This document shows, piece after piece, positions 1-17,103 of a stretch of DNA of 17,103 nt. Within the stretch, counting starts at the first letter, position 1. Every line of letters begins with the position of its first letter. This DNA comes from Phycisphaerae bacterium. GTDB taxonomy: Bacteria; Planctomycetota; Phycisphaerae; Sedimentisphaerales; Anaerohalosphaeraceae. A program made the position numbers and the translations under genes. Where the stretch lies: NCBI GenBank assembly GCA_021736615.1, contig JAIPFN010000115.1, forward strand, positions 1 through 17,103, in the 5' to 3' direction. The notes under the pieces are model-generated. The model saw only the letters and a program-made list of their open reading frames with translations, was not told the DNA's origin and did no database searches.

Positions 1-1
1 A

Positions 2-253
2 GACGATGGAACAACACCAGATTCAACCTCCCAAATTCGGGAATGTTCTGATTGTTTAAGAATTATTAGTGAATGTAATACTGTAACCTGTCCCAACTGC
101 GGCCATATCTTCTGTCTGCCTTGCACGATTTTGGGAATGTTCAATAATCAGAAGGAGCGAATTTGTAAAGACTGCGATATTAATCTCAATGGAGACTGCT
201 TTGACAAAATAAATAGGTGGTTTGAAAAAATAGAACAAAAAAGACTTAGGTAA
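2..253 (+). CDS. Partial protein with C-terminal RING-finger-like zinc domain
   Basis: The N-terminus lies left of the window; 83 residues and a TAA stop remain. Numbered from the first visible codon, the metal ligands are C15-x2-C18-x14-C33-x1-H35-x2-C38-x2-C41-x13-C55-x2-C58. This fits the RING-HC consensus (CxxC, CxH, CxxC, CxxC), including the typical CGHxFCxxC core. Extra cysteines sit at 25, 30 and 66. The tail after the domain is charged (Lys, Glu, Arg). The ATPase gene starts 12 bp downstream on the same strand, and the E2 and E1 homologues follow, so an E3-like role is an attractive inference. RING domains bind E2s in eukaryotes, and prokaryotic RING fingers are known. Other treble-clef or zinc-ribbon folds could give a similar pattern. 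The spacing is seen directly; E3 function is not shown. Confidence 0.7.
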   Translation, partial: DDGTTPDSTSQIRECSDCLRIISECNTVTCPNCGHIFCLPCTILGMFNNQKERICKDCDINLNGDCFDKINRWFEKIEQKRLR

Positions 254-265
254 GAAGTCAAAAAA

Positions 266-1558
266 ATGTCTAACTTCACAACAGGACAAATTAAGCAAGT
301 AATGCAAGACCCAAAACTGAGGGCACAGGACTGTCCCCAGTTAATGATGATTGCGAATCATTTGTTGATAAATCCCAATGATGATTATCTTCAGGAATGT
401 TTTATCCAAATGGTAAGAGGCAGAGCTGAAATCGTAGGCCAGGCGGGTCCATTATACTTAAACTGTCCGCCTAAAGGTGCGATATTGACTGAAGGACCTG
501 CGGTAGGAGTTGGGATACTGCAAACTGGCGATACTTTTCCATTTCCTTGTAATAGAGCTTCTGCCGGTACAATAGTTACAGGATTGCCAGGAAGCTGCAA
601 AACCACACTTGCCATGATAATTCTTATTCAGCTTATTCTCTCAGGAGTACAGGCAATAGTTTGGGATATTAAGGCCACCTGGCGCAAACTTCTTTCTTTT
701 CCTCCCCTTGCTGAACGGGTAATTGTTTTCTCTATACATGATATTATTGTGGCCCTTCTTCAACCGCCACCTGGCACGGGCCAACACGAATGGACGAATC
801 GATTTGTAAAAGTTTTTGCTCAAGCTTATGCCAGGATAAGTGCCCAGAGAATACTGAGGCAGGTCATAGACGAACTGCTTGCGTTTTGCCCACCAGGATG
901 CTGGCCTACTCCAAAAATGATGATAGAGAGGTTAAAAAAACTTCAACTTAAAAACTTTCGGGAGAAGGAGTACATATCAAGCATACTCTGGACTTTGATT
1001 GATTTGGACAATCATTTTCCAAATTCTTTTGAATTTACATCTTCAAATTTCCTTGAAAACCTATACGACATGCCGGGCAAGCTTATTATTATCGAAGATG
1101 AGGGGCTCCCGGTTCAACACTGGAACTTTTTGATAAGCCTGTTCAATGAATGGATCTTGACCTATCGGAAGAATAACCATCAATCCAGAAACTTCGACAT
1201 CGTTCATGTGGCTGAAGATTCCAGCTCACTGCTTGATGCTGCAAATGACAGAAGTACCCCGGGGGGAGTCTCTTTGATGGCTCAAAATCTAAACCTGTGC
1301 AGGGAGATGAGAATAGGCAACTTTCTGATTTGCCACAGTTTGAAAGAGGTGAGCCCCAAGATCCTTGCCAACATAGAATCATATTTTCTGTGCAGTCTTC
1401 GCGGTGATGACCCTCGGCTTGCTCAGCAACTGCTCGGCATATCTCGAGAGCAAACCGAGTTCATGAGAACAAACCCCAGAGGAACTGCATGCTCTCTTGT
1501 ACCGGCTATCTGGCCTTTGCCGGTATTAATCAATTATCCCAGGCTACCAGAGATGTGA
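266..1558 (+). CDS. P-loop ATPase, HerA/FtsK/VirD4-like
   Basis: A 430-residue protein with a P-loop at residues 106-114 reading GLPGSCKTT. The usual second glycine before the lysine is Cys111, which is unusual. A Walker B-like strand follows at about 273-279 (LIIIEDE, acidic pair D278/E279). Late in the protein, 'GNFLICHSLKEVSPKILANIESYFLC' style text (about residues 350-375, only partly quoted) resembles the sensor region of FtsK/HerA/TraG-type DNA pumps, where a conserved polar residue follows a strand. This suggests a ring ATPase that translocates DNA or protein. It sits 12 bp after the RING-like gene and 2 bp before the winged-helix gene, so all three are probably cotranscribed. Its role could be element transfer or partition, or effector in a defence system. 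The superfamily is fairly secure; the family and role are not. Confidence 0.7.
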   Translation: MSNFTTGQIKQVMQDPKLRAQDCPQLMMIANHLLINPNDDYLQECFIQMVRGRAEIVGQAGPLYLNCPPKGAILTEGPAVGVGILQTGDTFPFPCNRASAGTIVTGLPGSCKTTLAMIILIQLILSGVQAIVWDIKATWRKLLSFPPLAERVIVFSIHDIIVALLQPPPGTGQHEWTNRFVKVFAQAYARISAQRILRQVIDELLAFCPPGCWPTPKMMIERLKKLQLKNFREKEYISSILWTLIDLDNHFPNSFEFTSSNFLENLYDMPGKLIIIEDEGLPVQHWNFLISLFNEWILTYRKNNHQSRNFDIVHVAEDSSSLLDAANDRSTPGGVSLMAQNLNLCREMRIGNFLICHSLKEVSPKILANIESYFLCSLRGDDPRLAQQLLGISREQTEFMRTNPRGTACSLVPAIWPLPVLINYPRLPEM

Positions 1559-1560
1559 TA

Positions 1561-2325
1561 ATGACAACATTTAATAATGATATTAAAGATAAATTCCTCC
1601 AAAGCATCCGCTTTGTGGAGTGCCCGACCTTATATCTGCCTGATGCAAGAACCGCGGTATCAAGCGGTACCAAGCCATCCTCTAAAAGTGGTGAAGACTT
1701 ATCAATTAAGGCCCTTACATTGCTTGCAGTACCTATACCGCCACGAATCACTGATTTGTATGAAATGTTAAATATAAACCGCACCAAAGGCTCGAGGCTT
1801 ATTAAAAACCTTATCAACTCAGGCTTTATTATTCAACATCAATATCATCCCAGCAGGGCCGGTGGAAGCATCAAACTTCTCGAAATAACCCCAACAGGCT
1901 GGCAGAAGCTAAAACCCTTAGGCATTGATCCACCTTCAAAACTAATCCAAGGAAGTTGGGAGCATAATCTTTGTGGTGCTGTACTGAGTGTTATCGGCAA
2001 GCAGCAAAAATACAAAGTCTTATATGAAGTGCCTGTCGGTCCTGAAAAGACCGTACGCATAGATGTAATATGGGAAAATGAAGATGGAAAGCGAATCTAC
2101 TGGCAGTGCGGAGTAAGTTCCCATCAACGAGAAGCCCAGTCTATTATCAAGGCTTTAGAAGTGCCTGCAATTAGGTCGGGTCAGCTTGCCTTGCTTTGTA
2201 AAAACAAAAACTTCGGCAATCAGGTCAGCAAGCTTTTAAATGCTAAAAGCAAATATGTATCAATCAAATTGATAAGCGATGCACTTGATCACTATTACAA
2301 GAAAACAGGTGAGAGCCTGTTATGA
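1561..2325 (+). CDS. Winged-helix protein with degenerate nuclease-like C-terminus
   Basis: A 254-residue protein if it starts at ATG 1561, two bases after the ATPase stop. An in-frame ATG at 1489 has a good GAGGA five bases upstream but would overlap the ATPase gene by 70 bp, so I prefer 1561 without certainty. Residues of about 45-110 look like a winged helix: a helix pair around DLYEMLNINRTKGSRLIKNL, then a basic wing and 'ITPTGWQKL'. The C-terminal half has a strand-acidic-strand pattern (YEVPV, then VRIDVIWE, then IYWQCGVSS) reminiscent of the PDDEXK-type fold seen after winged helices in replication-relaxation proteins. The expected ExK is replaced by Gln and Gly, so it is probably not catalytic. 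The pairing with an upstream HerA/FtsK-like ATPase recalls mobilisation modules. The winged helix is likely; the rest is inference. Confidence 0.6.
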   Translation: MTTFNNDIKDKFLQSIRFVECPTLYLPDARTAVSSGTKPSSKSGEDLSIKALTLLAVPIPPRITDLYEMLNINRTKGSRLIKNLINSGFIIQHQYHPSRAGGSIKLLEITPTGWQKLKPLGIDPPSKLIQGSWEHNLCGAVLSVIGKQQKYKVLYEVPVGPEKTVRIDVIWENEDGKRIYWQCGVSSHQREAQSIIKALEVPAIRSGQLALLCKNKNFGNQVSKLLNAKSKYVSIKLISDALDHYYKKTGESLL

Positions 2326-2399
2326 AACACAGGGACATAAACAGTCAAGGCCCCAAACAGCCATCTCCATACCAGAGGTTGTCAAAAGGTCATAAGTAA
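2322..2399 (+). CDS. Possible 25-residue basic micro-ORF
   Basis: An ATG at 2322 overlaps the TGA of the winged-helix gene (ATGA, 4 bp), the arrangement used for translational coupling. The frame runs 25 codons to TAA 2397-2399 and encodes a basic, Pro/Gln/Lys-rich peptide beginning MKHRDINSQG and ending KGHK. It fills most of the gap before the Ubl gene. I recognise no homologue, and short frames arise by chance, so this is a candidate only. It could serve to carry ribosomes from one gene to the next. Confidence 0.25.
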   Translation: MKHRDINSQGPKQPSPYQRLSKGHK

Positions 2400-2434
2400 A
2401 TGAAACCATTAGTAATATTTGAAAGGAATTGATC

Positions 2435-2653
2435 ATGAGAATTTTTGCAGGTGGCAGAGAAATTGAAATACCTACAGATTCGGAAGGTAATGCAGATGTC
2501 GAGGAAATAAGACGGGTTGTTAATATACGTGAGAATCGGATGCCAATTATTCAACGGAATACTGGCGAAAACTTTATAGTACCAACGAATGGGCAAATAA
2601 AACTTAATCCATATGATAGGTTTTTGGATGCCCCTATAGCAAAGAGAGGTTGA
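2435..2653 (+). CDS. Ubiquitin-like protein with C-terminal Arg-Gly
   Basis: A 72-residue protein. I start it at ATG 2435, preceded by AAGGA with 7-bp spacing; a TTG two codons earlier is less likely. The layout suits a beta-grasp fold: a first beta hairpin (RIFAGGREIEIP), a helix (about 19-28, ADVEEIRRVV), then strands ending in a hydrophobic 'YDRFLDAP' and a flexible tail AKRG. The exposed C-terminal glycine is what an E1 would adenylate, so no processing step would be needed. It resembles single-unit members of the bacterial multi-ubiquitin family. The next gene, encoding an E2-like protein, starts 1 bp after its stop, and the E1 follows that. Sequence identity to ubiquitin is too low to judge by eye, so the call rests on size, tail and context. 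Confidence 0.7.
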   Translation: MRIFAGGREIEIPTDSEGNADVEEIRRVVNIRENRMPIIQRNTGENFIVPTNGQIKLNPYDRFLDAPIAKRG

Positions 2654-2654
2654 T

Positions 2655-3245
2655 ATGAATCGCAATAGACTCTTATCTGATATTAAAAGGCTATCGTGCG
2701 TTTATCCAGTGGCTGTAGATGATAATTTGGAGAGTTTGATTATTCGCGATTTTAACTTGCCGCCGGGATATAACTGTAACTATGTTTCAGTTTTGTTAAT
2801 GCTGCCGTCGGATTACCCTGAAAGTCCTCCCGGAACTGGAGATTCTAAAGTTTATTTGCCAAATGGTTTACTTTTTAAGGGTGAAATACCAGCTGATTAC
2901 CACGAAAATAATGGACCAGATGATGACTGGGCATGGTGGTGTTATGAAGATATAGAATGGGATTTATGTAAGGATGATCTGATTACTTTTTTCGAGTTGC
3001 TAAGAGCGCATATGACAAATCCTGAAGATGATGACTGGAATCCAATTAATACATTAATCAACCTTGATAATTACCAGCCTCCGATTAGTCCACTTATCAA
3101 CTTCCAAGATGATCTCCTGCATTCTATATATCAACATACCAACTCTGAGAAAAATATGCAGTATCTAAATTACAGACTTACAGATGTTGGTAATTCTGAT
3201 TTAAACCTTTTTGAATCACTTTTTCGAAAGAGAGATGAACTATGA
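2655..3245 (+). CDS. E2/UBC-fold conjugating-enzyme homologue (Prok-E2_E-like)
   Basis: A 196-residue protein starting 1 bp after the Ubl stop, with a GAGAGG ribosome site inside the Ubl gene end. Residues of about 10-125 follow the UBC layout: a beta meander with LPPGYNCNYVSVLLMLPSDYP (the classical YP-x-x-PP turn), 'YLPNGLLFKG', a loop, then an aromatic-rich segment WAWWCYEDIEW and a helix DDLITFFELLRAHM ending near NP. C96, just before W102, aligns best with the catalytic Cys of eukaryotic E2s (Cys, several residues, Trp, then a helix to P); C105 is the alternative. There is no His-Pro-Asn motif; an 'LPN' stands near that place. The region after about 125 is an Asn/Asp-rich tail of unknown role. 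It overlaps the JAB-E1 gene by 4 bp (ATGA). The pattern matches Pfam Prok-E2_E as I recall it; a profile search was not possible. Confidence 0.75.
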   Translation: MNRNRLLSDIKRLSCVYPVAVDDNLESLIIRDFNLPPGYNCNYVSVLLMLPSDYPESPPGTGDSKVYLPNGLLFKGEIPADYHENNGPDDDWAWWCYEDIEWDLCKDDLITFFELLRAHMTNPEDDDWNPINTLINLDNYQPPISPLINFQDDLLHSIYQHTNSEKNMQYLNYRLTDVGNSDLNLFESLFRKRDEL

Positions 3246-4888
3246 TTAAATTTAAAATAATTGAATGGTTGACGACTATTTGCTCTCGCCTACTGAAGTC
3301 GCAACTTGTAACAGCATGCAAAAACACTGTTACAACAATAATAAACTCTGTAGTTTCATTTTGCCACCACTACTGGTCATGTTTTAATCGTATCATTGAC
3401 AAATTGTTCCAGGATTATAAGTCAGGAGAATTAAACCTTCTGCCTACCGTTGAATATATTATCAGATTCTCACAGAAAGACTTTAATGCTCTTAAAGAAC
3501 ATTTGTTGTCAGCAGGCAACCTCGAAAGCCAGGCCTTTGCGCTTTGCTCAAAGGCTAAAGGGGCAGCATTTGAAATACTTATCTGCGACAAATTAATTTT
3601 GCCTGATGCTATTGACCTTAGAAATCAGTCACAGGCTTCAGTAGAACCATCACAGGAGCATCAAGCGATTGTCTATGGTCTTGCCTGTGAACTTGGATTG
3701 TGTGTTGTAGATATACATACACATCCCTTTAGTAGAATTGCCAGATTTAGCCCTATTGATAACTATCATGGAGAAAAAAATGCCAGATACCTTGCAAACA
3801 ATTTCCCTGAAAACTCAATGATGGGAATGATAGTTTTTGGTGGTGACCTTGAACATTTTGATGCCCAAATATGGAACAGTGAAGAAGCGATTTTTGAACC
3901 TGTTCAGAGATTGGAGATATTAGGCTATCCAACCACCATATTAGATAGCTCCGAGATTGTAAAAACTCCTCATGATAAGTTTTTTGCCCGACACCAAACC
4001 ATACCTGGCTGGAAACAAGGTACGCTGGAACGATTAAAGGTGTTTGTATGTGGACTTGGGGGTAACGGCTCACTGGTCTTTGAAAGCTTAGTGAATTTAG
4101 GGGTAGGTAAATATGGCTGGATTAAAGCTTGCGATCCTGATGTTGTTGAACCCTCTAACTTGCCCAGAATACCTTATGCTTTCCCCAGGGACATAGGTAA
4201 GCCCAAGGCAGAAATATCACAAGTATATGCAGATAATAAAGGCCAAGGCCTCAAAGTTTATTGCTACCATGATTCAATAGAGAGCGATTGGATTAAACAG
4301 CAAGCCAAAGAAGCAAATGTTATCATCAGCGCCGTAGATAATGATGGGGCAAGAAAAATAATCAATAGTTTGGCTGCACGTTACATGATTCCGTGTATTG
4401 ATCTTGGAACTGAAATCATACTCGAAGAATCATCTTATGAATCAATAGGGCAAGTACAAGTATTTATTCCATGCAAAACCGGATGTTTCATGTGTTCAGG
4501 TGCCATTGATCCTTCTCAGGCAGCTTTGGATTTATTGACAGAACAGGGGCAACAGGAACATGCTGACATTGGCTATATCAGAGGCACAAACGAAACCCCT
4601 ACGCCTTCAGTATTGCATCTAAATGGCGTAGTGAGTCATTTAGGAATATCACATTTCCTTAGGATGGTCTTTGGTGATTCCATTGATGGCAAAGAATATG
4701 TGCATTATGACCGTCAAAGATCCCGACTCATTACTGCGGCAATCAAGCCTTCATTAGATTGTCCAATATGTGGGAGGGATGGATACTTAGGTGCTGGGGA
4801 TATAAAAGAAAATGAAAAACTATGCCTTAATGACATCAAGGATAGCAACATCACCCTCATTAATGGTGATATAAAAAATGATGAATAA
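3242..4888 (+). CDS. JAB/JAMM isopeptidase fused to ThiF/E1-like activating enzyme
   Basis: A 548-residue fusion. Residues 1-70 form an amphipathic extension I do not recognise. A JAB domain (about 75-225) carries the JAMM ligands E95, H159-x-H161, S170 and D173; the spacing from HxHP to S is one residue longer than usual. The E1 domain (about 262-515) has the nucleotide-binding GLGGNGS at 271-277, the acidic residue and 'SNLPR' arginine typical of ThiF/MoeB (D298/D300, N306, R309), 'ISAVDN' near 363-368, and a structural zinc site C415-x2-C418 with C507-x2-C510. The family normally adenylates a Ubl C-terminal glycine; a catalytic Cys for the thioester is not obvious (C411 is one candidate). 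The JAB half would cleave conjugates. Activation and removal thus sit in one chain, directly downstream of Ubl and E2. It overlaps the primase gene by 8-11 bp. Confidence 0.92.
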   Translation: MIKFKIIEWLTTICSRLLKSQLVTACKNTVTTIINSVVSFCHHYWSCFNRIIDKLFQDYKSGELNLLPTVEYIIRFSQKDFNALKEHLLSAGNLESQAFALCSKAKGAAFEILICDKLILPDAIDLRNQSQASVEPSQEHQAIVYGLACELGLCVVDIHTHPFSRIARFSPIDNYHGEKNARYLANNFPENSMMGMIVFGGDLEHFDAQIWNSEEAIFEPVQRLEILGYPTTILDSSEIVKTPHDKFFARHQTIPGWKQGTLERLKVFVCGLGGNGSLVFESLVNLGVGKYGWIKACDPDVVEPSNLPRIPYAFPRDIGKPKAEISQVYADNKGQGLKVYCYHDSIESDWIKQQAKEANVIISAVDNDGARKIINSLAARYMIPCIDLGTEIILEESSYESIGQVQVFIPCKTGCFMCSGAIDPSQAALDLLTEQGQQEHADIGYIRGTNETPTPSVLHLNGVVSHLGISHFLRMVFGDSIDGKEYVHYDRQRSRLITAAIKPSLDCPICGRDGYLGAGDIKENEKLCLNDIKDSNITLINGDIKNDE

Positions 4889-5915
4889 TAAACTGGAAAA
4901 ATATCATTGGATTGAGTTAGCAGCCATGACAGCTGATGGCAAAATGGCAAGGGGCGAATATGTTCGCATTGATGATACCAATGCAATTAACGCCTGGAGA
5001 GAAAAATTCACAAACCGTGATGTATTCACCTCTGTTTGCAGTTACGCCAAACCTAACCACACATCAGAATTCATCGTGCCTGTATTCTTTGATATTGATT
5101 GTCCAACCGACCTCAAAGCAGCACAAGAAAGTACACTTACACTTTGCATTATGCTCATGGACAGAATATCTGTCCCCCAGGAAAGTTTGGATATTTATTT
5201 CAGCGGCAATAAAGGCTTCCATGTCCTTGTGCCATGCAAGGTTTTTGATGCGTTTTATTCACCGCACATATTAACTCTTTATAAGGCAATGGCCCAAAAG
5301 GCCCAACAGTACGGCGTTCATTTCATCGATAACACTGTTTATACCAACCGCCGCATATGGCGAATGGCAAATTCCATCAATACAAAGTCAGGTCTTTTCA
5401 AAATACCCTTCACCTTTGAAGAACTTCGGGATATGGGTATTACAAGCATTCAGGATTTGGCTCGATCTCCACGACCCGAGGATTCATTTGCGATATCGAA
5501 AACCTTCGTACAAACCGCACAATGGTATAACAAAATAATCAATTATTTTGAAAATCAGTCAGAGAAATCTCAAGACCCTTCAAAAAAGATTAACCAGGAA
5601 TTTAAAAATGGCTGGCGTATACTGCCATGTATAAAAGAAATACAACAGACCACTCTAACCGATGGCAGCCGTCATCATATCTATATGATCCTGGCTCGCT
5701 ACTACAGCTACCTCAATATGCACCATGATGAGATACTTGAAAGAATTGAAAGATTAGATACTCGCAACCCGATCCGTGATGCCGATTACATTGAGCGTAT
5801 CGTTAAGTTCGGCCTGAGATACCCCGGCTTTTCGGGGTGCAATGATCCCCAACTTCAAAAATACTGCGACAACCGTAACTGCTTTTATGCAAAAATAAAA
5901 AAACGTGATGGCTAA
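4878..5915 (+). CDS. Archaeo-eukaryotic primase (PriS-like with PriL-like Fe-S tail)
   Basis: A 345-residue protein (or 344 from the second ATG at 4881) overlapping the JAB-E1 gene end. The AEP catalytic motifs are in order: D72-x-D74 in FFDIDCP, SGNKGFHVLVP at 109-119 with H115, and R162...N165-S166...K170 in the segment RMANSINTKSG. The C-terminal part has LPC251 followed by a helical stretch and then C321, C330 and C335. This spacing resembles the four-Cys Fe-S domain of PriL fused to PriS in mobile-element and phage primases. It probably makes primers or extends DNA for the element; a role beside the ubiquitin-like enzymes is possible because the genes overlap. A weak hairpin (TGATGG/CCATCA, 5906-5922) straddles its stop codon, without a U-run. 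The AEP assignment is strong, the Fe-S domain likely. Confidence 0.88.
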   Translation: MMNNKLEKYHWIELAAMTADGKMARGEYVRIDDTNAINAWREKFTNRDVFTSVCSYAKPNHTSEFIVPVFFDIDCPTDLKAAQESTLTLCIMLMDRISVPQESLDIYFSGNKGFHVLVPCKVFDAFYSPHILTLYKAMAQKAQQYGVHFIDNTVYTNRRIWRMANSINTKSGLFKIPFTFEELRDMGITSIQDLARSPRPEDSFAISKTFVQTAQWYNKIINYFENQSEKSQDPSKKINQEFKNGWRILPCIKEIQQTTLTDGSRHHIYMILARYYSYLNMHHDEILERIERLDTRNPIRDADYIERIVKFGLRYPGFSGCNDPQLQKYCDNRNCFYAKIKKRDG

Positions 5916-5983
5916 ACCATCAAAACTAAAGAGGGAACTTGATTCAAGAAGTTTGTAACTCCTAAAACAAGGATGGATTTCTG

Positions 5984-6265
5984 ATGTCGCCTGAAAAGTC
6001 GAAAAACAGTTACAGGTTCATACCGCCAACTGTCCTGCCAGATGGCAACGGAGGTTTTACGCCTTGTCCTGAACTGTTAACTGAGGAAGAAGCAATCAGA
6101 TTTCTTCGCCTTGATCTAATTTCTGTCGAAGATTCTTCTGGGACTTTGAGGTATTACAGAAAAAAAGGCCTTCTTAGGGCAACGCAGGTAGGCAAGTGTA
6201 TTAGGTATCGCCGTATCGAACTCGAAAAGTTATTAGAAAAGCTTACAGAAGTTAATCCACGCTAG
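5984..6265 (+). CDS. MerR/excisionase-type helix-turn-helix protein
   Basis: A 93-residue protein. After a Pro-rich start (residues 1-30), residues of about 31-88 form a MerR-like winged helix: LLTEEEAIRFLRLD (helix, turn), TLRYYRKKGLLRATQVG (recognition helix and wing) and KCIRYRRIELEKLLEKL. This small domain is typical of excisionases and of regulators beside phage-type integrases. An AAGGA lies 12 bp before the ATG. It is 68 bp downstream of the primase gene and 134 bp upstream of the integrase gene. The gap before it holds a short palindrome CTTGATTCAAG (5938-5948) that could be an operator, though that is weak. Function as recombination directionality factor or repressor is inferred from context. 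Confidence 0.8.
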   Translation: MSPEKSKNSYRFIPPTVLPDGNGGFTPCPELLTEEEAIRFLRLDLISVEDSSGTLRYYRKKGLLRATQVGKCIRYRRIELEKLLEKLTEVNPR

Positions 6266-6309
6266 AAATTTATTGTTAAAAATAAAAATAAATTTTTTAA
6301 AAAAAGTTC

Positions 6310-6338
6310 TTGCGCTCGACTGCCAAATGCGCTTTAAT
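6310..6338 (+). promoter_or_regulatory. Candidate promoter of the integrase gene
   Basis: TTGCGC at 6310-6315 and TTTAAT at 6333-6338 are separated by 17 bp, about 60 bp before the integrase ATG and downstream of a very AT-rich run (6265-6306). The -10 matches the sigma-70 consensus at 5 of 6 bases and the -35 at only 3 of 6, so this is a modest candidate. Confidence 0.3.
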
Positions 6339-6399
6339 CCAGGAAAAGCATCATCTGCAAATTTAATGCGGAACAATATTTATGTAGAAGGAATAAAAG

Positions 6400-7506
6400 A
6401 TGGCAACGAAAAGCACCGTTACTTTAAGCAGTAATGGCAAATATTGGCAGGCTTCATATTATGACACTTTGGGAAGGCGAAAAGCTAAAAGCCTTGGTCC
6501 CAAAAAGGAGCTTTCAAGACGACAGGCAAAGGTCAAATGTGATCGTTTTGCTGCTCAATTGATTCTCAATCCTGGAAGCGCTGACACTTCTCGCTCTTAT
6601 AAACTAAGTGACCACCTCGAACGATATTTTAACAGTCGAACTGACCTTCAGAAATCTACACTAGATTTGCATCGTTTAACAGGCAGCTATTTAAAAGAAT
6701 TCTTTGGAGAAGAAACCGATATTAACCGTATCAATCGAGCATTAGCCTCTGATTGGCGGGCAGCCATGGCCAAAGGTAAACTTAGCTTTCATAAAAAAGG
6801 GAATCCAATGTCAGAGGCGTCCGTATGTATACATGCCCGCAATGCTAAAACGATTTTCGGTTATGCCGTAAAAGACGACCTGATCCTATTCAACCCCTTT
6901 GACCGCCTTAAAGGAAATGCTGCTGAGCCGGACAAGGATTGGAAATACGTCAGTATCGAAGAGCTTGATAAACTGCTTGACGCCTGTCCGAACATAAACT
7001 GGAAATTATTGATTGCTTTATGCCGGCTTGCAGGCTTACGCAGGGGTGAAGCATTGGATCTGAAATGGTCATCTATTAATTGGCAGCAGCACCATTTTAG
7101 TGTGATCGCAATAAAAACCGGCCGTCGCAGAATCGTCCCGATCGTGCCGAAATTATATCAGCTGCTTCTTGATGCATTTGATCAGGCAGAGGAAGGTCAA
7201 GAGTTGGTTTGTCCGATTTCACGACACTGCCTGTGGCGTAACTTCCAGGTTTATCGCAAGCGGGCAGGGCTAAAAAAGTGGAAAGACGCCTTTCAGGTTT
7301 TGCGAAGGAACTGTGAAACTGACTGGGCACAAGAATACCCCCAATATGCGGTTTCAAACTGGATCGGACATAACATCCAGGTATCCGCCCGCCATTACCT
7401 GCAGGTCCCGGCAGAGCTATACAGCAAGGTCGCTGCCACAAACAAGCCACAAACTGCCACAAAAACTGCCACAAAACAGCACGACGACCAACACGCAAAA
7501 AAATAA
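6400..7506 (+). CDS. Tyrosine recombinase / phage-type integrase
   Basis: A 368-residue protein starting at ATG 6400, with AGAAGG upstream. It has an N-terminal arm-type DNA-binding part (1-60), a SAM-like core-binding domain (about 70-180) and a catalytic domain (about 195-340). Catalytic residues visible: R214 in AGLRRGEA, K239 in IKTGRRR, R302 in FQVLRR, H324 in IGHN and the nucleophile Y333 in ARHYLQV. Box II is Q299-x-x-R302 rather than the common His-x-x-Arg. The C-terminal 25 residues are repetitive (Thr-Ala-Thr-Lys) because the DNA there is a set of direct repeats. The gene ends 37 bp from the 3' end of a tRNA gene, which marks this as the element's integrase beside its attachment site. 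Its last codons overlap the terminator of the convergent tRNA. Confidence 0.95.
   Translation: MATKSTVTLSSNGKYWQASYYDTLGRRKAKSLGPKKELSRRQAKVKCDRFAAQLILNPGSADTSRSYKLSDHLERYFNSRTDLQKSTLDLHRLTGSYLKEFFGEETDINRINRALASDWRAAMAKGKLSFHKKGNPMSEASVCIHARNAKTIFGYAVKDDLILFNPFDRLKGNAAEPDKDWKYVSIEELDKLLDACPNINWKLLIALCRLAGLRRGEALDLKWSSINWQQHHFSVIAIKTGRRRIVPIVPKLYQLLLDAFDQAEEGQELVCPISRHCLWRNFQVYRKRAGLKKWKDAFQVLRRNCETDWAQEYPQYAVSNWIGHNIQVSARHYLQVPAELYSKVAATNKPQTATKTATKQHDDQHAKK
7434..7476 (+). repeat. Four phased direct repeats, candidate integrase arm sites
   Basis: (T/A)GCCACAAA(C/A) occurs at 7434-7443, 7445-7454, 7455-7464 and 7467-7476, with starts 11, 10 and 12 bp apart, about one helical turn each. They lie inside the integrase 3' end, 70-110 bp from the tRNA. 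Integrase arm-binding sites are commonly short direct repeats close to the crossover site, so a binding role is a reasonable inference. A coding repeat by chance slippage is the alternative. Confidence 0.5.
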
Positions 7507-7539
7507 GTCCTTGTAACTTATTCCCTTACAAGGACTTAT
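7497..7539 (-). terminator. Intrinsic terminator downstream of the tRNA
   Basis: Arms 7503-7516 and 7526-7539 pair perfectly over 14 bp (core AAGTCCTTGTAA / TTACAAGGACTT) around a 9-nt loop. Read on the minus strand the hairpin is followed at once by seven T (7497-7503), the form of a rho-independent terminator for the tRNA transcript. It overlaps the stop codon of the convergent integrase gene. On the + strand it lacks a T-run. Confidence 0.75.
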
Positions 7540-7543
7540 AAAG

Positions 7544-7617
7544 TGGGCGATACTGGACTTGAACCAGCGACCCCCTGCGTGTCGAGCAGGTGCTCTAGCC
7601 AACTGAGCTAACCGCCC
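7544..7617 (-). tRNA. tRNA-Val (GAC), probable attachment site
   Basis: Reading the minus strand from 7617, a 74-nt cloverleaf forms: a 7-bp acceptor stem GGGCGGT/ATCGCCC with one G-U pair, a 4-bp D stem GCTC/GAGC, anticodon stem CCTGC/GCAGG with loop TCGACAC (anticodon GAC, valine), a 5-nt variable loop and T arm GCTGG-TTCAAGT-CCAGT, then discriminator A. CCA is not encoded. Position 33 is C where U is nearly universal. The element's integrase ends just beyond the 3' end, so this 3' half is presumably the att core. The matching second copy would lie left of the window. Confidence 0.93.
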
Positions 7618-7627
7618 CAGTGGGAGT

Positions 7628-7657
7628 ATAATATCTATATTTCCACGCCAAATGCAA
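7628..7657 (-). promoter_or_regulatory. Candidate promoter of tRNA-Val
   Basis: On the minus strand, TTGCAT (7652-7657) and TATTAT (7628-7633) are 18 bp apart. The -10 ends about 10 bp before the tRNA 5' end, a suitable distance. The -10 is 5 of 6 to consensus, the -35 only 3 of 6. Confidence 0.45.
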
Positions 7658-7732
7658 GTGTTTAACCTGAAATTTTTATATTTATTGAAAAATTTGCAAG
7701 ATTGCTGCCTTAAAGCCTTTATTTATAAAACT

Positions 7733-8635
7733 TTATGGCTTGTGCAGAAAGCCAATTGTCGATTCCATTATTCGATTGTGGACTTCGGTGGTTTTGTCCT
7801 CCTTTGTCTGTTCCTGGAGGTCCTGGAGATTTGCGCGGCAAAAATGACAGCCGAGTTTGTTTAGGTGGAAGTCAACATATTCCGCCCAGGGTTTTTCGAG
7901 TGTTTCGAGCAAATACGCACCGATAGTGCTTCGCTTTGGACAACTCGGCCGGGCAGAGTCCCATACCTGAGTAAGCATGGACTCTATGCCGGTATCGCCG
8001 AGCGAGGACAGGTCGCATTTCTGAACATACCCGCGGATTTGCTTTATGCAGCGGTGCTTTATGACGGCTATGTGCTGCTGGGAGATATCCATCGCTTTTG
8101 CGATATCTGTATTTGACAGCTGACAATAGAACAGCAGTTCAACGGTCTGCAGTTCGCGGAAGTCCAGATTGGCCTTGTAATTTTTGACAAGCTCGTTAAG
8201 GGCATCGCCCAGGGCGGTCAATTGGGCGGAGCGATCCTCATCACGGCCGACATATCTGCTTGCCGTCAGTTCATCAGAGGCCAGATTAGAGAAGGCGTTC
8301 GACGATGATTCCTCCGAGCCTGATTTGCCGTAGATGTCCTGTATGAGCGTTACGTGCCTGGAATGGGCGCTGCGGTAGGTGTCTGCGATCTTGCGGCGGA
8401 GGATAGCAAACAGGTAGCTCTCGACGGGCGATTCCTGCCTGAATGACGGGAGGGATTTGATAAACGCGATGAAGGTGTCCTGGACGACGTCCTCGGCGTC
8501 GGCGCGCTGGGCGACCTTGGCCCTGGCGAAGGAGACTAAACGTCCCCTGAAGCGGTCTATCAGTTGAGACCACGCTTGCTGGTCGCCGGAGCGGATGCGG
8601 TCTATCAGATATTTGTCCGCTGCTGTCGGTTTCAT
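7733..8635 (-). CDS. ECF-like sigma-70 factor with C-terminal zinc motif
   Basis: A 300-residue protein, longer than a typical 180-200-residue ECF sigma. Sigma region 2 (about 10-85) includes DRIRSGDQQAWSQLIDRF and the DAEDVVQDTF helix that contacts core polymerase. Region 4 (about 145-205) has LQTVELLFYCQLSNTDIAKA and a helix-turn-helix MDISQQHIAVIKHR. The C-terminal extension (205-300) contains HLNKLGCHFCRANL, a His-x5-Cys-x2-Cys pattern recalling the zinc motif of anti-sigma factors, so self-regulation is possible. This layout occurs in planctomycete sigma factors. No clear ribosome site precedes ATG 8635. The upstream region carries an unusual array of TTTACC motifs that may control it. 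Confidence 0.85.
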   Translation of the reverse strand: MKPTAADKYLIDRIRSGDQQAWSQLIDRFRGRLVSFARAKVAQRADAEDVVQDTFIAFIKSLPSFRQESPVESYLFAILRRKIADTYRSAHSRHVTLIQDIYGKSGSEESSSNAFSNLASDELTASRYVGRDEDRSAQLTALGDALNELVKNYKANLDFRELQTVELLFYCQLSNTDIAKAMDISQQHIAVIKHRCIKQIRGYVQKCDLSSLGDTGIESMLTQVWDSARPSCPKRSTIGAYLLETLEKPWAEYVDFHLNKLGCHFCRANLQDLQEQTKEDKTTEVHNRIMESTIGFLHKP

Positions 8636-9098
8636 GTTTTATTTGTCCGGTTTTGCGGCCGGGTGTACCAAAAGTTTACCGTTCTTTACCGTTTTTTACC
8701 GTTTTTTTACCATTTCCTTTACCGTTTTGATCTGAATTTCAATCTATTTTCATTATTTATCCTCATTTAAAGGCGTTTATGGCACATGTTTACCAAAGTT
8801 TACCGTTTTTTTACCGGTTTTAATCGGCCTTAAAACATTACCTGCAATGTCCTGTAAGTGGCGAATATATAATGCCCGTCTATAATTGCACAAACTTACT
8901 TGTTTCATGCGAAAATGGGCGTATTTTTGCCTGTCTAAATCGCCTAAGTCGTTTGCGCATAAGGGATTAAAAAATAGTATTTTTTTTGCAAATAGCAAAA
9001 TAGTGTCATTGCATTTAATTCGATTTTGATCAAGGCGGCGGGAATTAATTACGAATTATCCCATTGTAGAATACCTACGCATTTACCGGAAGGCCCTA
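8636..9098. other. 463-bp intergenic region
   Basis: Between the sigma gene and the membrane-protein gene. It holds the TTTACC array (8675-8815) and AT-rich sequence around 8970-9060. A 73-codon minus-strand frame (8777-8998) runs through part of the array and lacks recognisable features or a ribosome site, so I do not call it. I see no convincing terminator after the membrane-protein gene. Confidence 0.6.
8675..8815. repeat. Helically phased TTTACC array upstream of the sigma gene
   Basis: On the + strand TTTACC (often TTTACCGTT) starts at 8675, 8685, 8695, 8706 and 8718, then again at 8789, 8799 and 8810. Steps are 10, 10, 11 and 12 bp, a 71-bp gap, then 10 and 11 bp. All copies have the same orientation (GGTAAA towards the sigma gene). 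The last base of the first cluster lies about 40 bp upstream of the sigma start codon at its nearest. The regular one-turn spacing suggests a protein binding side by side on one DNA face. Confidence 0.75.
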
Positions 9099-10655
9099 TC
9101 ATACCATGGTTAGCAATATCACTACTGCGATTATACCTATGACTGTCAGTATTCGCAAGACTACTGTGTAATATCCCTTTGTCGCGGCGTTTAGTATGAG
9201 ATATATCACGCAGATAACCAGTGCGATTCCGATCGCCGAGAGTATATGATATGCCCAGGATTGCCTTGCGGCCTTATATACCCCCAGCTTGTTTTCGGCA
9301 AGACGCTGAACATTTTGGGGTAAAAGGTTAAGAAGTATAGCCTGCCTGTGAATATTCGATGCTTTGCCGCTCAGAGACTGTGCGAATTGATCCTCTACGA
9401 GACCGTAATTCCATAAATCATCCCTTGATATCGAATAGTTTTCGACCCTGCCGTCATATTGCGGCAATGAGCGGGCAACCTGGAATATTCTTTCGGCTAC
9501 TAGCTGCGTTGCCTGGTTTTCGGCTTGTGCCTTTGCGGATTCATAAGAGCTTGCCGGGTTTTGAGAATATGCTATCAAGTAGTGATTTCCGGGTCTTGCG
9601 TTTGAGTAAGCATCTAGGTTTTCGAGCCACGGCCTGTCCTGGAAACTGACCACTTCTTTATGGCTGCTGGTTTTAGTATGAGTTTCGATCGTAATCTGAC
9701 CATCTTTGGAAGTTTTAACAATGTCCGGTTTGCCGGGGACTCTGATAGTGACTGTACTGTGTGGGTGTTTTGATAAAGTAACACGCAATGCAATTCTGTT
9801 ATCGTAACTTTCTATTGAATCGATCCCCACTGAAAGGGGTATGAATTCTGTTTCCGGCAAAAGCTGCTGGAAATAGCTTACTGCCTGAGCGAATACGTTT
9901 TCGTCGATTTCGTCCCTGTATGTTACCAGTGCAATTTTTTTGGGAATGGGATGATCTTGAAGAGCTAACTGTCGAAAATATTTTTCTGAACGAGCGGCAA
10001 TGCCTCGCAATGCGGCAGATATAGAATAATAATTGCTTGCGGTGAACTCCTTTTCCATGCCGGGTGACCATACGGCAGGCAGAGGCTTATCGGCGGCAGC
10101 TTCGATCATCTGGGGGTATTCGGCTACTGCTATTTGTTCTTGGCGTGGCGATATGTGTCCGGCCCTTAAGTAAAAAATACTTAGAACACCCAAGGCACCA
10201 ACTCCGAGCGGGATAAACAGCATTGCCCATTTTTTTCGAATTATCGCTATAACAATAAGTACGACCAGAGCGAGCAAACCGATTAGAAGAATCAGTGAAG
10301 TAAAAGCCAAATTAGGCGTGACACTAGTATGCACAACATTGGGCTGGTTGCGTGTTACCTTTACGCTGCCGTCAAGACTGTATTCGGCAACCTGGTCGCT
10401 GTTGTTTGAGCTATTGCCCTGTCTGACATGCGTATCCTGTACTGCCTGGACACGTGCGGCAGTCGCCCTATTCCGGACAAGATGTTGAGACTCGGTCGAG
10501 GACACGAAATGCAAACCAATAAATACAGTAAACAGCATTACAAGGCCCAACGGTATGAAGAGCAAGGCCCATTTTTTACTTATTATCGCATAGATTATCA
10601 AGGCTAGAAAGCCTGCGATAAGCATTAGCATTGGTAAAGCTAGAAAAACAACCAT
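9099..10655 (-). CDS. Membrane protein with duplicated N-terminal module, unknown function
   Basis: A 518-residue protein with AAGGA 9 bp upstream of the ATG. Residues of about 5-50 and 115-165 are two copies of one module: two hydrophobic helices joined by a basic turn, reading AIISKKWALLFIPLG in the first and AIIRKKWAMLFIPLG in the second. A long soluble region follows (about 170-460), with no motif I recognise; part near 380-400 is Ala/Gln-rich and helical. Two more membrane helices close the protein (about 465-515). The soluble part would therefore sit between membrane anchors, possibly in the periplasm. It lies 185 bp downstream of the kinase gene and may be part of the same transcription unit, but the hairpin cluster between them makes this uncertain. 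Confidence 0.8.
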   Translation of the reverse strand: MVVFLALPMLMLIAGFLALIIYAIISKKWALLFIPLGLVMLFTVFIGLHFVSSTESQHLVRNRATAARVQAVQDTHVRQGNSSNNSDQVAEYSLDGSVKVTRNQPNVVHTSVTPNLAFTSLILLIGLLALVVLIVIAIIRKKWAMLFIPLGVGALGVLSIFYLRAGHISPRQEQIAVAEYPQMIEAAADKPLPAVWSPGMEKEFTASNYYSISAALRGIAARSEKYFRQLALQDHPIPKKIALVTYRDEIDENVFAQAVSYFQQLLPETEFIPLSVGIDSIESYDNRIALRVTLSKHPHSTVTIRVPGKPDIVKTSKDGQITIETHTKTSSHKEVVSFQDRPWLENLDAYSNARPGNHYLIAYSQNPASSYESAKAQAENQATQLVAERIFQVARSLPQYDGRVENYSISRDDLWNYGLVEDQFAQSLSGKASNIHRQAILLNLLPQNVQRLAENKLGVYKAARQSWAYHILSAIGIALVICVIYLILNAATKGYYTVVLRILTVIGIIAVVILLTMV

Positions 10656-10683
10656 TTTTTTATTTCCTTATTTCAAACTAGCT

Positions 10684-10839
10684 GCGGGCAAGATGCCCGC
10701 ATTACGGATCAACGTCGGCAAGATGCCGACATTACGAAAAAGCCGCGGGCTGGAAGCCCCCGCTACGATACAGCGTGTGCTGAAGCACACCATACGATCT
10801 TGTTTTTTTAAGCACAGTAACAGCGTGGGCACGGCCCAC
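10684..10839. repeat. Cluster of five REP-like hairpins
   Basis: Five short hairpins follow one another: GCGGGC-AAGAT-GCCCGC (10684-10700), GTCGGC-AAGAT-GCCGAC (10714-10730), GCGGGC with an imperfect partner (10745-10763), GTGTGC-TGAA-GCACAC (10775-10790) and GTGGGC-ACG-GCCCAC (10825-10839). Each is followed by a variant of ATTACG/CTACG. Start-to-start distances are about 30, 31, 30 and 50 bp. The stems differ in sequence yet keep pairing. They lie between the kinase stop codon and the next gene, where REP elements usually sit. Confidence 0.85.
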
Positions 10840-10840
10840 C

Positions 10841-13390
10841 CTACGGTTTATTTTCCATATACAGCGACGACATTAATTCGGGCTGATCACGTTTTGGCGG
10901 CCAGGCGAGAATCACTACTGATGCGATAAATATTATTGCCGCTAGCATCAAATTTTCTTCAGAAGTCCTGCCTTCAAATAGTTTGTCCGATTGGCCGGAA
11001 AACACTTTTTTCAGAGATTCAACAGTATAACTCCTGAAAAGTGCGTCGTGCATCATGAGTAATGAGATAACGAATCCTGACATAGCGACAATCGAACGTA
11101 ACATGTGACGTATACCATGACGGCGGCGAGCGATGATTATCGATGTCGCCGCCAAAGCCCCTAGAATTATTGTACCCAGAAAGAGTATCATACTAAGCAT
11201 AACTGCCCAGCCATTTCCTAACTCGTTTTGCATGCCCAAAGCCAATTCGGGGATCGCTCCCTCTATGATAACCGGAAAACGCACAGCAGCAGCGATACCA
11301 AGTATCAATGCGATAAAGAGCAAAACGTATCCGAGACCGGCAAGCAGGTATGCGAATGGTTTGAAAGATGGTTTGTAAAAACTTGACGCGAAAGACTGCT
11401 TCCGAGCGTACTGCGGTTGATCTGTTGTCGGTTGAGACTGTGTTGAATCATTACCTGTTTCAGTTGTCTTTGCAGGTTCGGCGCTTTGCTGTTGCGGGTT
11501 ATCATCGGTGCGCTCGCGCTTCGGGTTTCTGTTTCTTCCGGGAATTTTCGATTCCTTTTCCCATAGCATTAGCTTGCGCCCCTGCTTATCTGTAAACTGT
11601 CCGGTTAGGATCATTATCGTATCGATGATCTGGCCGATACCGAAGAATCCGAAAGTAAAGAGCCACAGTATTCCCGTCCCGATCTTGCCGACGTAAAAAC
11701 GATGGAGACCGCCCACACAGGAGAAAAGCATTATACAGGACATGAACAATGCAATAAAGCCGTTGTAAGGTGAAACGTCGGAGGCAGCGGCGGCTTGCGG
11801 CTTGACCGGTTTTGGAGCGGGTTTTGGCCGCGGTTGCGGGTTCGATTTTTTCTCTGCACCGGTCGGAGCAAATGGAGAAGCGATCTGCACGGCGAAAGCG
11901 GTACCGGCAAAAACACAGGCAAGCAACTGCGGTGGAATATGGGCAATATGACCGGCAATCCATCCGACAAATCCCACCCACAGAGCGGTCCAAAGCGACA
12001 ATCTCGTTTGCCGGTCAGGCGAAGCAAGCTTCCACCAATCAACAAAACTTATTCCAATGTAAACGACGATAAACCCAAACAAACTGCTTCTCACAAATCC
12101 GCCATAGTCTATAATAGACGACAATACCATAACCCCTATCAAAGGCATCGAAGCAATAAATCCCATAAGCGAGCGGCGTCCCATGCCTGCCTGATCACTC
12201 ATATCTGCAAACCACTGACGGCGGGCAGTAACGACTAATGCAGCTGTAAGTCCGATGACGAAAGAATAGATTCCGACATTCAACGTAGATGTTTTCACAC
12301 CGGCAACACCAAAGGCGGCACCTGCCAATGAGATCAATACTATAGCCATCAAAAAAAGTACCGCGCGTTGTTTGCTAGTTACAAAGTCCGCGTTCGCAGC
12401 CTCTTGCCATGTATAGGCAGCCGTCCTGACCCTGCGACCGGCTTCGTCGAGTCGGGAGTTTACAGTTTTTCCAGCATGATCGATCCTATCAGCGATGGGA
12501 TCCTTGCGATGCGGCAGGTCGTGTCCCATTTTTTTGCCGACTCGCTCTGCGACCATCGACAGTGAGTTCGGCGAAAAGTGCGACATACTGTTTTGTACCT
12601 GCTCGGAACCGAAAACATCTTCGACCATTTCCTGGACTGTCTGGTATCTTTCGGCGGGATCCTTGCAGAGGGCTTTCTTTATTACCCGCTGGAAAGGCTG
12701 CTCGATATTGTCGAGTTCCGCGTCTGCGGTGAGGTGTTTCATGAGTACTTCGGCGGGGCTTGCTCCGAAGAACGGTACCTGGCCGGTTACCATTTCATAC
12801 AGAAGCACGCCGAGTGCGTAGATATCGACGGACCGGTCGTAACGCCCTGCTCCGATCTCCGGGGCCATGTAGTGAACGGTACCGACGGTGATTGTCTGGG
12901 CGGAATTCTGGCTTGAGTTGATGGCTTTGCTCAGGCCATAGTCACCGATCTTTACCGCTCCGTTTTCATAGAAGATGTTACTCGGTTTGAGGTCGCGGTG
13001 GACGATTCCGCATTCGTGCAGATACGACAGGCCCTTTGCTATCTCTCGCAGAAAGAAGGCCGTCTTTTGTGTGCCGAGACCGCCGGGGGAATCTTTGATT
13101 AATTCCGACAGCGACGGGCCAGAGACGAATTCCATTATAACGAAGGGTTTTCCTTCGGCGTTATACTTGACGTCAAAAATGCTCACCAGGTGCGGGCTTT
13201 TGAGGTTCATGCACTGGGTAATGCCGCGAAGCTCGATCTGCTCGTAGTTCTGGATAACCTTAAGCGCGACCTGACGGCCGGAATCGCTGACGGCATAGTA
13301 AACCTCACCGAAACCACCAAAACCTGCGCCTCGCTCGATAGTATAACCTTCAAGCGGCCGGTCACCATGTTTATATTGAAATTGTCGCAT
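10841..13390 (-). CDS. Membrane Ser/Thr protein kinase with TM2 domain
   Basis: An 849-residue protein. The Hanks-type kinase domain (about 16-270) has the glycine loop GAGFGGFGEVY (21-31), Lys44 in VALK, the catalytic HRDLKPSN with D133, a DYG instead of DFG with D150, and the APE motif. A linker follows, then a block of about six membrane helices (335-510), a Pro/Lys-rich linker, a TM2 domain around 545-605 (GGLHRFYVGKIGTG then GIGQIIDTIMIL), a Gln/Thr-rich disordered stretch and four further helices to the end. All key kinase residues are present, so it is probably active at the cytoplasmic membrane. It lies 39 bp after the FHA-like gene, whose product could read phosphothreonine marks. 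The signal sensed is unknown. Kinases with varied membrane tails are common in Planctomycetota. Confidence 0.93.
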   Translation of the reverse strand: MRQFQYKHGDRPLEGYTIERGAGFGGFGEVYYAVSDSGRQVALKVIQNYEQIELRGITQCMNLKSPHLVSIFDVKYNAEGKPFVIMEFVSGPSLSELIKDSPGGLGTQKTAFFLREIAKGLSYLHECGIVHRDLKPSNIFYENGAVKIGDYGLSKAINSSQNSAQTITVGTVHYMAPEIGAGRYDRSVDIYALGVLLYEMVTGQVPFFGASPAEVLMKHLTADAELDNIEQPFQRVIKKALCKDPAERYQTVQEMVEDVFGSEQVQNSMSHFSPNSLSMVAERVGKKMGHDLPHRKDPIADRIDHAGKTVNSRLDEAGRRVRTAAYTWQEAANADFVTSKQRAVLFLMAIVLISLAGAAFGVAGVKTSTLNVGIYSFVIGLTAALVVTARRQWFADMSDQAGMGRRSLMGFIASMPLIGVMVLSSIIDYGGFVRSSLFGFIVVYIGISFVDWWKLASPDRQTRLSLWTALWVGFVGWIAGHIAHIPPQLLACVFAGTAFAVQIASPFAPTGAEKKSNPQPRPKPAPKPVKPQAAAASDVSPYNGFIALFMSCIMLFSCVGGLHRFYVGKIGTGILWLFTFGFFGIGQIIDTIMILTGQFTDKQGRKLMLWEKESKIPGRNRNPKRERTDDNPQQQSAEPAKTTETGNDSTQSQPTTDQPQYARKQSFASSFYKPSFKPFAYLLAGLGYVLLFIALILGIAAAVRFPVIIEGAIPELALGMQNELGNGWAVMLSMILFLGTIILGALAATSIIIARRRHGIRHMLRSIVAMSGFVISLLMMHDALFRSYTVESLKKVFSGQSDKLFEGRTSEENLMLAAIIFIASVVILAWPPKRDQPELMSSLYMENKP

Positions 13391-13414
13391 TACAATCCAT
13401 TTAAAATTATTATC

Positions 13415-13442
13415 GCTAATTGCTTATTGCTAATTGCTAATC
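13415..13442. repeat. Heptanucleotide repeat GCTAATT
   Basis: Four tandem 7-bp units, GCTAATT, GCTTATT, GCTAATT and GCTAATC, run from 13415 to 13442, with a further decayed unit after. The array covers the stop codon and the last codons of the FHA-like gene (minus strand), so it contributes its final residues. A related array lies at 16116-16150. Confidence 0.7.
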
Positions 13443-15007: not shown

Positions 15008-15129
15008 GATTTAAGCCTCACAGATCAGGATGCCGATTGCCGGCAGCCGCGAAAAAATCACGAACTATTTATTTTAACGTTTTTCCGCCAAAATAGCAAA
15101 TCAAGATGCTTTGAAAACCAAACCTGACG

Positions 15130-15927
15130 TTAATTGACCTCTGTTGGCAATTTTTTGGAGAAATATTCGTCGACCTGGCCGGTCAGCTCGGTTTCGCTTA
15201 CTTCGTCGAGGGGGATCGACTGGACGAACTGGTTTTCGTGGGCGAGGACGCGTTCGGCGACGGTCAGACGCTTTTTGATCTCGCCGATTAGCTTTTCGGT
15301 CTGGGCGAGTTTGCTGTTGTCGACGTGTATGCCCGATTCGACGGCTGAGGCCTTCAGGAGCCTGTACTGGGTTTCGAGACTTTCGATCTTGCTGGCTAGC
15401 AGGCGTTTTCGAGACTTGGTCTTTTCGAGCAGGTCCATTGACGATTGCAGTGCGGTTTGTCTTGTCGCGAGCAGTTTATTCTTGCTTGCAAGTACCAGTT
15501 CCGACTCTTTGAACCGGTCAAACCGCCATGAAAGATCGTCTTTTACCTGCTGGCGCGAATATTCTCTGCCGCCGAAGCTGAAGGCCTTTTTGTCGGATTT
15601 GAGGTAGTCTCTAAGCTGGGCGATCCGGCCCTGCTGGTCCTTGACGGATTTTTCGCCCTCGGAAACCTCATTTTTCAGGGCGGCGACTTCTACTTCTTCC
15701 CTGGCGATAAGGCCGATATTTGCGTGCATTTCGGGGATTATCTCTTCGAGAAGGTCCCTTGCCCGGCGAAGCTCGAACTCGACCGGGACCGAATCCTTGA
15801 TCGCCGACCTGGCCCATTTACCCGAGCTTTTCGCATAGCTGAGAACATCTCTGCCAAAGAAGAAAGTGCCTACTACTAAAAGACTTACGACAAGAATTAC
15901 ACTTCTTTTGATCCATTTTCCAAACAT
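15130..15927 (-). CDS. Membrane-anchored coiled-coil protein of planctomycete type
   Basis: A 265-residue protein. I start it at ATG 15927, which has AAGGAG 7 bp upstream; an in-frame ATG 14 codons earlier lacks one. After MFGKWIKRS comes one membrane helix (about 10-28, VILVVSLLVVGTFFFG). Residues 50-245 are almost entirely charged helix with heptads, broken by a short conserved-looking segment FSFGGREYSRQQVKDDL near 130. The layout (single N-terminal anchor, 'SVPVEFELRRAR', long coiled coil) matches a protein I remember as widespread and uncharacterised in Planctomycetota; function is unknown. PspA-like coiled coils are a distant alternative. It stands alone, 122 bp upstream of the FHA-like gene. 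Confidence 0.75.
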   Translation of the reverse strand: MFGKWIKRSVILVVSLLVVGTFFFGRDVLSYAKSSGKWARSAIKDSVPVEFELRRARDLLEEIIPEMHANIGLIAREEVEVAALKNEVSEGEKSVKDQQGRIAQLRDYLKSDKKAFSFGGREYSRQQVKDDLSWRFDRFKESELVLASKNKLLATRQTALQSSMDLLEKTKSRKRLLASKIESLETQYRLLKASAVESGIHVDNSKLAQTEKLIGEIKKRLTVAERVLAHENQFVQSIPLDEVSETELTGQVDEYFSKKLPTEVN

Positions 15928-16062: not shown

Positions 16063-16115
16063 CCAACAAGGAATATCGAATTATGAAGTAAAAGCATGCA
16101 AACCGGTTTTTTGTT

Positions 16116-17102: not shown

Positions 17103-17103
17103 C

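Follow-up and report, generated by a model that had tools for sequence, protein, structure and literature searches.

Does a bacterial operon in which a RING-pattern zinc protein precedes a ubiquitin-like modifier, an E2 and an E1 encode a complete conjugation cascade of the eukaryotic kind, ligase included, or does the conjugation cassette serve another machine? The question is raised by 17,103 nucleotides from a Phycisphaerae bacterium (GenBank assembly GCA_021736615.1, contig JAIPFN010000115.1, positions 1 to 17,103 of the forward strand; hereafter the window), where an earlier note had read positions 2..4888 as a Bil-like cascade with modifier, activation, conjugation, ligation and removal on a mobile element. 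Our analysis supports that the ubiquitin-like protein (Ubl), the E2, the E1 and the JAB are genuine, conserved as an operon and located on an integrative element; the folds and motifs of these proteins, their gene order, a swap of cassettes and integration at tRNA genes were all recovered by computation. The ligation part, and with it the complete eukaryote-like set, is not supported. With moderate confidence, we read the locus from its sequence as a probable conflict- or defence-type operon whose relay is exchangeable and, in the window, consists of Ubl conjugation; it occupies the integrase end of an element inserted at a tRNA gene.

The ubiquitin-like cassette and its relatives

The three genes of the cassette lie on the forward strand and are spaced as had been described. 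The Ubl (2435..2653, 72 amino acids (aa), C-terminal Arg-Gly) most likely starts at ATG 2435 rather than at TTG 2429, and its stop codon (2651-2653) is separated by a 1-bp gap from the ATG of the E2 (2655..3245) at 2655; the E2 stops at 3243-3245 and overlaps by 4 bp the JAB-E1/ThiF fusion (3242..4888, JAB N-terminal), whose ATG is at 3242. The Ubl had no Pfam match in a profile search, and its structure was predicted as a confident beta-grasp (predicted local distance difference test (pLDDT) 89) with the Citrobacter multi-ubiquitin as the closest structure. It is of the multi-ubiquitin type, yet is a single domain and no tandem of two or three. Its solo relatives are 24 proteins of 71-83 aa, the window's own included, in a search that accepted only proteins of 0.55-1.75 times the query length, and several of them end in a C-terminal tail.

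The E2 scored above the cut-off against Pfam Prok-E2_E (8.9e-8), has a C-terminal extension and is closest in structure to BubB; its WAWWC motif places a Cys at the active-site position, where BubB has a Ser. Cys occupies this position in 13 of 15 distinct E2s, and Ser is found in those of loci L059 and L060. The E1 matches Pfam ThiF (1.2e-28), the closest structure of the fusion is BubCD, and the JAB residues E95, H159, H161, S170 and D173 are invariant in all 111-112 homologues (of 118) that cover the position; the E2-fold protein and the JAB-E1 fusion stand as first described. The E1 carries a CxxC...CxxC tetrad, with no further Cys column above 98 of 118 homologues, and Ser456 of the window E1 aligns with a Ser of BubCD. 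The first zinc CxxC is retained in the window protein and lost in Citrobacter BubCD. Sample A1 holds 32 of the 118 homologues, A7 is without the E2s of L010, L011 and L055, and A8 is without the Ubls of L010 and L011. The JAB-E1 of the window carries ∼65 additional N-terminal aa (window 3242-3440), and so do its two closest relatives (P0002 and P0003). The neighbourhood search that the earlier note had proposed found the Ubl-E2-JAB-E1 order again in related genomes; E2 adjoins JAB-E1 in 12 of the first 13 loci, and the 13th begins at E1.

Two described systems resemble this cassette. In the accessible text of PMC1779556, the type 6e operon of Iyer et al. (2006) comprises a polyUbl, an E2/RWD-like protein, a JAB-E1 and a metal-binding protein; it shares with the window a JAB N-terminal to E1, a small E2, Ubls of ∼70-75 aa and a sporadic distribution, and one species is said to have a solo Ubl, whereas that text calls the 6e E2 inactive (here it mostly has Cys) and the present cassette is coupled to a zinc protein-HerA core. 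The Citrobacter Bub proteins (BubA, BubB and BubCD), known here from PDB titles and the accessible part of PMC13373217, are the best PDB sequence or fold matches of the Ubl, E2 and JAB-E1, but the window has a solo Ubl against a multi-ubiquitin and Cys against Ser in the E2; phage protection by Bub was not demonstrated, according to the authors in that part. BilABCD, the relative named earlier, also combines Ubl, E2, E1 and JAB in a single operon; however, its JAB and E1 are separate proteins and its Ubl has two domains (accessible text of PMC11354881), in contrast to the fusion and solo Ubl of the window. Bil membership was rejected on this architecture; the BilC and BilD hidden Markov models gave only 0.0093 and 0.034 on window proteins, and the profiles point to Bub and multi-ubiquitin. 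By sequence and fold comparison, the cassette is a solo-Ubl relative of Iyer type 6e/Bub and not a Bil system. For Bub, an oxyester linkage is the idea under discussion. A Cys E2 combined with a Bub-like E1 may stand between oxyester-like and thioester-like chemistries. In a Methanocella metagenome-assembled genome (MAG), the E2 gene apparently starts with a Ubl-like stretch (L011:6144-6782; weak profile match, 0.0052), possibly a Ubl-E2 fusion directly before JAB-E1.

Exchange of cassettes behind a HerA-like core

Upstream of the Ubl, on the same strand, the window encodes a HerA/FtsK-type P-loop ATPase (266..1558) and a winged-helix protein with a nuclease-like C-terminal part (1561..2325), which correspond to the N- and C-terminal parts of fused ATPases in relatives; the matches of the winged-helix/nuclease-like part are weak (MarR 0.056, MTES_1575 0.028). 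The genes 5′ of the cassette in relatives are a zinc protein and a HerA-like ATPase with such a C-terminal part, often accompanied by a small hydrophobic protein (by eye). Among the 10 JAB-E1 loci with at least 4 kb upstream, eight (L001, L006, L007, L009, L010, L055, L059 and L060) have both zinc protein and ATPase, both of them diverged in L007 and L010; the upstream region of L012 is broken by transposase-like genes (by eye), and L011 has neither gene. The ATPase and winged-helix parts are fused in L001, L006, L009 and L055; L059 and L060 have them split, as does the window, whose two proteins align in order to the fused ones (hhalign E 4.3e-8 and 7.4e-6). A frameshift between the two open reading frames (ORFs) was rejected and they are read as two separate genes, because genomes G731, G781 and G515 also have them split and the next ATG is two bases on; the winged-helix gene most likely starts at this ATG (1561), two bases past the ATPase stop, the mechanical ORF being 1489-2325. 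Moreover, both window proteins match one protein of G436 (3.9e-67 and 2.3e-22), the window and G436 ATPases group at 100/100 in a tree, and their excisionases match at 3.7e-35. An assignment of the window ATPase to a widespread 'far' HerA group (scores mostly of 43-58 bits, where near ones gave 3-22, and a long branch) was dropped; it was moved beside the near clade (89/88) because of the bridging G436 protein.

At E<=1e-8, the ATPase search (A4) matched 27 of the order's 159 genomes; at E<=1e-25, it matched 4 of 307 class genomes and 2 of 392 phylum genomes. For 11 genomes with a close ATPase and sequenced surroundings (the contigs of G002 and G810 start within the ATPase gene), the genes behind the ATPase are Ubl-E2-JAB-E1 in four (G001, G002, G006 and G138), E2-JAB-E1 with no detectable Ubl in two (G731 and G781), PP2C-kinase in one (G719; PP2C 4.2e-5, just below cut-off, and kinase 7.6e-10, above it) and Hsp70 in four (G515, G436, G575 and G810). 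Hsp70 was identified by Pfam in G515 and G436, both of which also have a VWA and a GrpE (the GrpE match passes its cut-off in G515 but not in G436), and was assigned in G575 and G810 by matches of 1.7e-202 and 9.5e-202 to the G515 protein. Prok-E2_E was not found in G719, G515, G575 or G810 in a search of 159 genomes (nine positive), and JAB-E1 was not matched in these four or in G436 in the class and order searches. No paper on a HerA core whose Ubl, kinase or Hsp70 cassettes are exchangeable was found in searches of the open-licence PMC literature. In G731 and G781, the place of the Ubl is held by short ORFs of 55 and 66 aa (L059:7270-7437 and L060:9960-10160) that are not Ubl-like and end near Lys-Gly, possibly another modifier beside the Ser-type E2. 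The planctomycete MAG G006 has two diverged operon copies on two contigs (L006 and L009). A related ATPase (L006:6447-8627) matches PADLOC mad8 (5.6e-14) and the kinase of the PP2C-kinase cassette (L095:8913-10175) matches mad6 (3.4e-9), each among other families, and this may point to a relationship with MADS defence.

Downstream of the cassette, the forward strand encodes an archaeo-eukaryotic-type primase (4878..5915), whose start overlaps the E1 end by 11 bp, an HTH_17 excisionase-like protein (5984..6265) and a tyrosine integrase (6400..7506); tRNA-Val(GAC) follows on the reverse strand (7543..7617) as the presumed attachment site, and the genes past it are host-like as judged by eye. The mobile element proposed earlier is borne out. 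In the window, in G436 and in eight further loci (10 in total), the 3′ end of the integrase gene is overlapped by a tRNA gene or has one at a distance of no more than 92 bp; the eight loci scanned were picked for a visible integrase-like gene, and the scan was made without the integrase-profile matches of L003, L005 and L009. In L006, L059 and L096 a tRNA gene is within 140 bp of the integrase-like gene but on its 5′ side, and the integrase of L097 has a profile match of 6.3e-7. A far-end direct repeat of the tRNA 3′ end was found in none of nine loci, window included, in the sequence first analysed; with 60 kb more sequence, G138 shows the tRNA-Phe 3′ half repeated perfectly over 47 bp at a distance of 58.8 kb. 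NACHT/STAND NTPase genes stand beside five HerA operons (L055:13503-16751, L097:1-3470, L060:14168-16363, L009:1222-4959 and L059:11526-14097). NTPases divergent to the operons match NACHT in G138 (1.6e-10) and nSTAND in G515 (3.3e-10), the NTPase matches of G781 and L009 (NACHT 9e-6) are below cut-off, and the divergent gene of L059 matches that of G138 (7e-62); the genes of G001 and G719 have just an N-terminal domain in common with the NTPases of G138, G515 and G781 and are otherwise different, and L006 has a helix-turn-helix (HTH) protein in place of the NACHT/STAND gene.

For the chemistry, the defence role, the target and the role of the zinc protein, we infer the following scheme. Judged by their folds, the zinc protein, the HerA-like ATPase and the winged-helix/nuclease-like partner would form a DNA-engaging core, and the slot behind it would carry an exchangeable relay, which in the window would be ubiquitin-like conjugation. 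The ThiF domain would adenylate the Arg-Gly terminus of the Ubl, which would be passed to the E2 cysteine and then attached to a target, while the JAB could trim the tailed Ubls of several relatives and would remove the Ubl from the target; the NACHT/STAND neighbours of sister elements suggest that the activity is invader-triggered. A broader and more tentative proposal, which we would place just short of probable, is that planctomycetes harbour a group of integrative conflict elements with a fixed zinc protein-HerA-winged-helix core, interchangeable Ubl, kinase-phosphatase and GrpE-Hsp70-VWA relays and variable, often NACHT/STAND, sensors, the Ubl version of which would use a hybrid chemistry, in which a Bub-like E1, with a near-invariant Ser and without a conserved free Cys, would supply a Cys E2. 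If the relays can truly replace one another in the slot, one bacterial conflict system would use tagging by Ubl, phosphorylation and chaperoning for equivalent work, and the role of a bacterial Ubl tag would therefore be directly testable by comparing sister elements.

Several observations weigh against the exchangeable-relay reading. G731 and G781 (L059 and L060) retain E2 and JAB-E1, with a Ser-type E2, and no detectable Ubl; the window and G436 ATPases join the other close ATPases at 89/88 only; the nuclease-like part is drawn from weak matches; and the window sequence starts at base 1, so that no sensor gene is visible for its element. In G809 (L103:6489-9902), a related ATPase is followed directly by a related primase with no Ubl genes between them, and ATPase and primase also look like element backbone. 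The last two observations, like the HerA/TrwB type of the ATPases, speak for an alternative in which the zinc protein, ATPase, winged-helix protein, primase, excisionase and integrase are replication and transfer genes of the element and the Ubl trio is an unrelated passenger. We consider this unlikely, while granting it real weight: at many tRNA sites, the gene set immediately following the ATPase core is one of a small number of cassette kinds, and several of these operons adjoin NACHT/STAND genes.

The zinc protein and the question of a ligase

The first gene of the window (2..253, forward strand), recognised by ORF call, sequence pattern and relatives, encodes a zinc protein and is incomplete here, because its ORF is 5′-open at the window edge. 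Its ligands (C-x2-C-x14-C-x1-H-x2-C-x2-C-x13-C-x2-C) have the C3HC4 spacing that had been noted. A general RING-pattern expression matched this ORF alone among 1429 ORFs of at least 45 aa from the window and 13 relatives (the scan reported no ORFs of 400 aa or more), and therefore the match is not commonplace. Among PDB chains at E<=0.5, 13 of 22 are RING E3s, seven FYVE and two other, Arkadia being the best (3.6e-4), and RING E3s score slightly better than FYVE domains for the window protein. A relative of 144 aa (P0120, 76% identical), which had the window protein as its sole close relative in the protein search, is suggested to neighbour Ubl P0125 in a second organism (both longest contig 6285 bp). 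These data, together with a hydrophobic residue after C2 and a place in the same operon as the Ubl genes, favour the explanation that the Ubl cascade is complete and eukaryote-like, with the RING-pattern protein as its E3. A bacterial Ubl set with a RING E3 would not be the first: the accessible text of PMC7159879 describes FtsH ternary systems with Ubl conjugation and a RING E3 inside a larger conflict system, planctomycetes included, but there the Ubl is fused to E2, JAB and E1 are separate proteins, and a MoxR-vWA-FtsH core stands in place of HerA. Likewise, in the accessible part of PMC5654768, the Ub-E1-E2-srfp operon of Caldiarchaeum subterraneum brings together Ubl, E1, E2 and a RING-pattern protein.

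Nevertheless, we now regard a RING E3 as improbable. The Trp and Arg of the srfp E3 were tested by mutation according to that part of PMC5654768, from which we took the E2-contact criteria, whereas the window protein lacks a Trp in the C6-C7 interval and carries Asp, not Lys/Arg, after C8; the contact Trp and the Lys/Arg after the last ligand are absent from both P0119 and P0120. No Pfam RING model was above cut-off for the zinc proteins, the best model for P0120 being FYVE (2.7e-4, below cut-off), and the structure prediction for the window protein, at a low pLDDT of 36, does not confirm the RING fold. The C-x-H ligand pair is kept in P0120, is CxxC in six close-clade relatives and has Arg for the RING-type His in G436. 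The six relatives have eight invariant ligands, and the spacing in L001 (CxxC-x31-CxxC-x4-CxxH-x14-CxxC) is closer to FYVE-like than to C3HC4.

The comparison of cassettes weakens the E3 further. The zinc protein of G436 (148 aa) lies immediately before the ATPase of an operon with Hsp70 and no Ubl, and it is related both to the window pair (77.8% and E 1.9e-5 in hhalign; 3.9e-5 in a phmmer search of 2394 sequences; 3e-6 in a one-to-one BLASTP comparison) and to the six close-clade zinc proteins (hhalign 90.3%, E 1.5e-6); direct homology between the window protein and these six is undetectable (hhalign 1.3%), and G436 bridges them. With G436, a zinc protein therefore precedes the ATPase in all four non-Ubl operons with upstream sequence (G719, G515, G575 and G436), the PP2C-kinase element among them, and two Hsp70 elements (L096 and L097) keep part of the ligands. 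In addition, the closest other Ubl/JAB-E1 locus, on a 32,777-bp contig that may stop short, has no listed RING homologue. The zinc protein thus seems, from its neighbours and sequence, to belong to the DNA-motor (ATPase) genes and not to the tagging kit. Sulfur-carrier or cofactor chemistry of the ThiS/MoaD-ThiF type in place of protein tagging is very improbable: the ThiF-type E1 with its tetrad and no other comparable Cys column would suit it, but E2 stands beside JAB-E1 in nearly all of the first loci, the JAB motif is kept and the closest structures are Bub.

Distribution of the cassette

Of the order's 161 genomes, 8 have a JAB-E1 at E<=1e-60, as have 6 of the 397 class genomes. At 1e-25, 78 of 392 phylum genomes gave matches, better than 1e-100 only in G001, G003, G006 and G138; the remaining ones look like other ThiF proteins. 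The first 13 loci carry 11 planctomycete names, one Methanocella and one deltaproteobacterium. No relative was found among viral contigs and phages, and the 19 plasmid records are all below 60% identity. On a cyanobacterial plasmid (L063:515-8831), a JAB-E1 homologue lies directly 5′ of type III-B CRISPR genes (Cas10/Cmr2 and Cmr3), with cas2 nearby, and a haloarchaeal plasmid (L062:3295-5650) has a small protein, E2 and JAB-E1 in the same order, its JAB-E1 being ∼28% identical.

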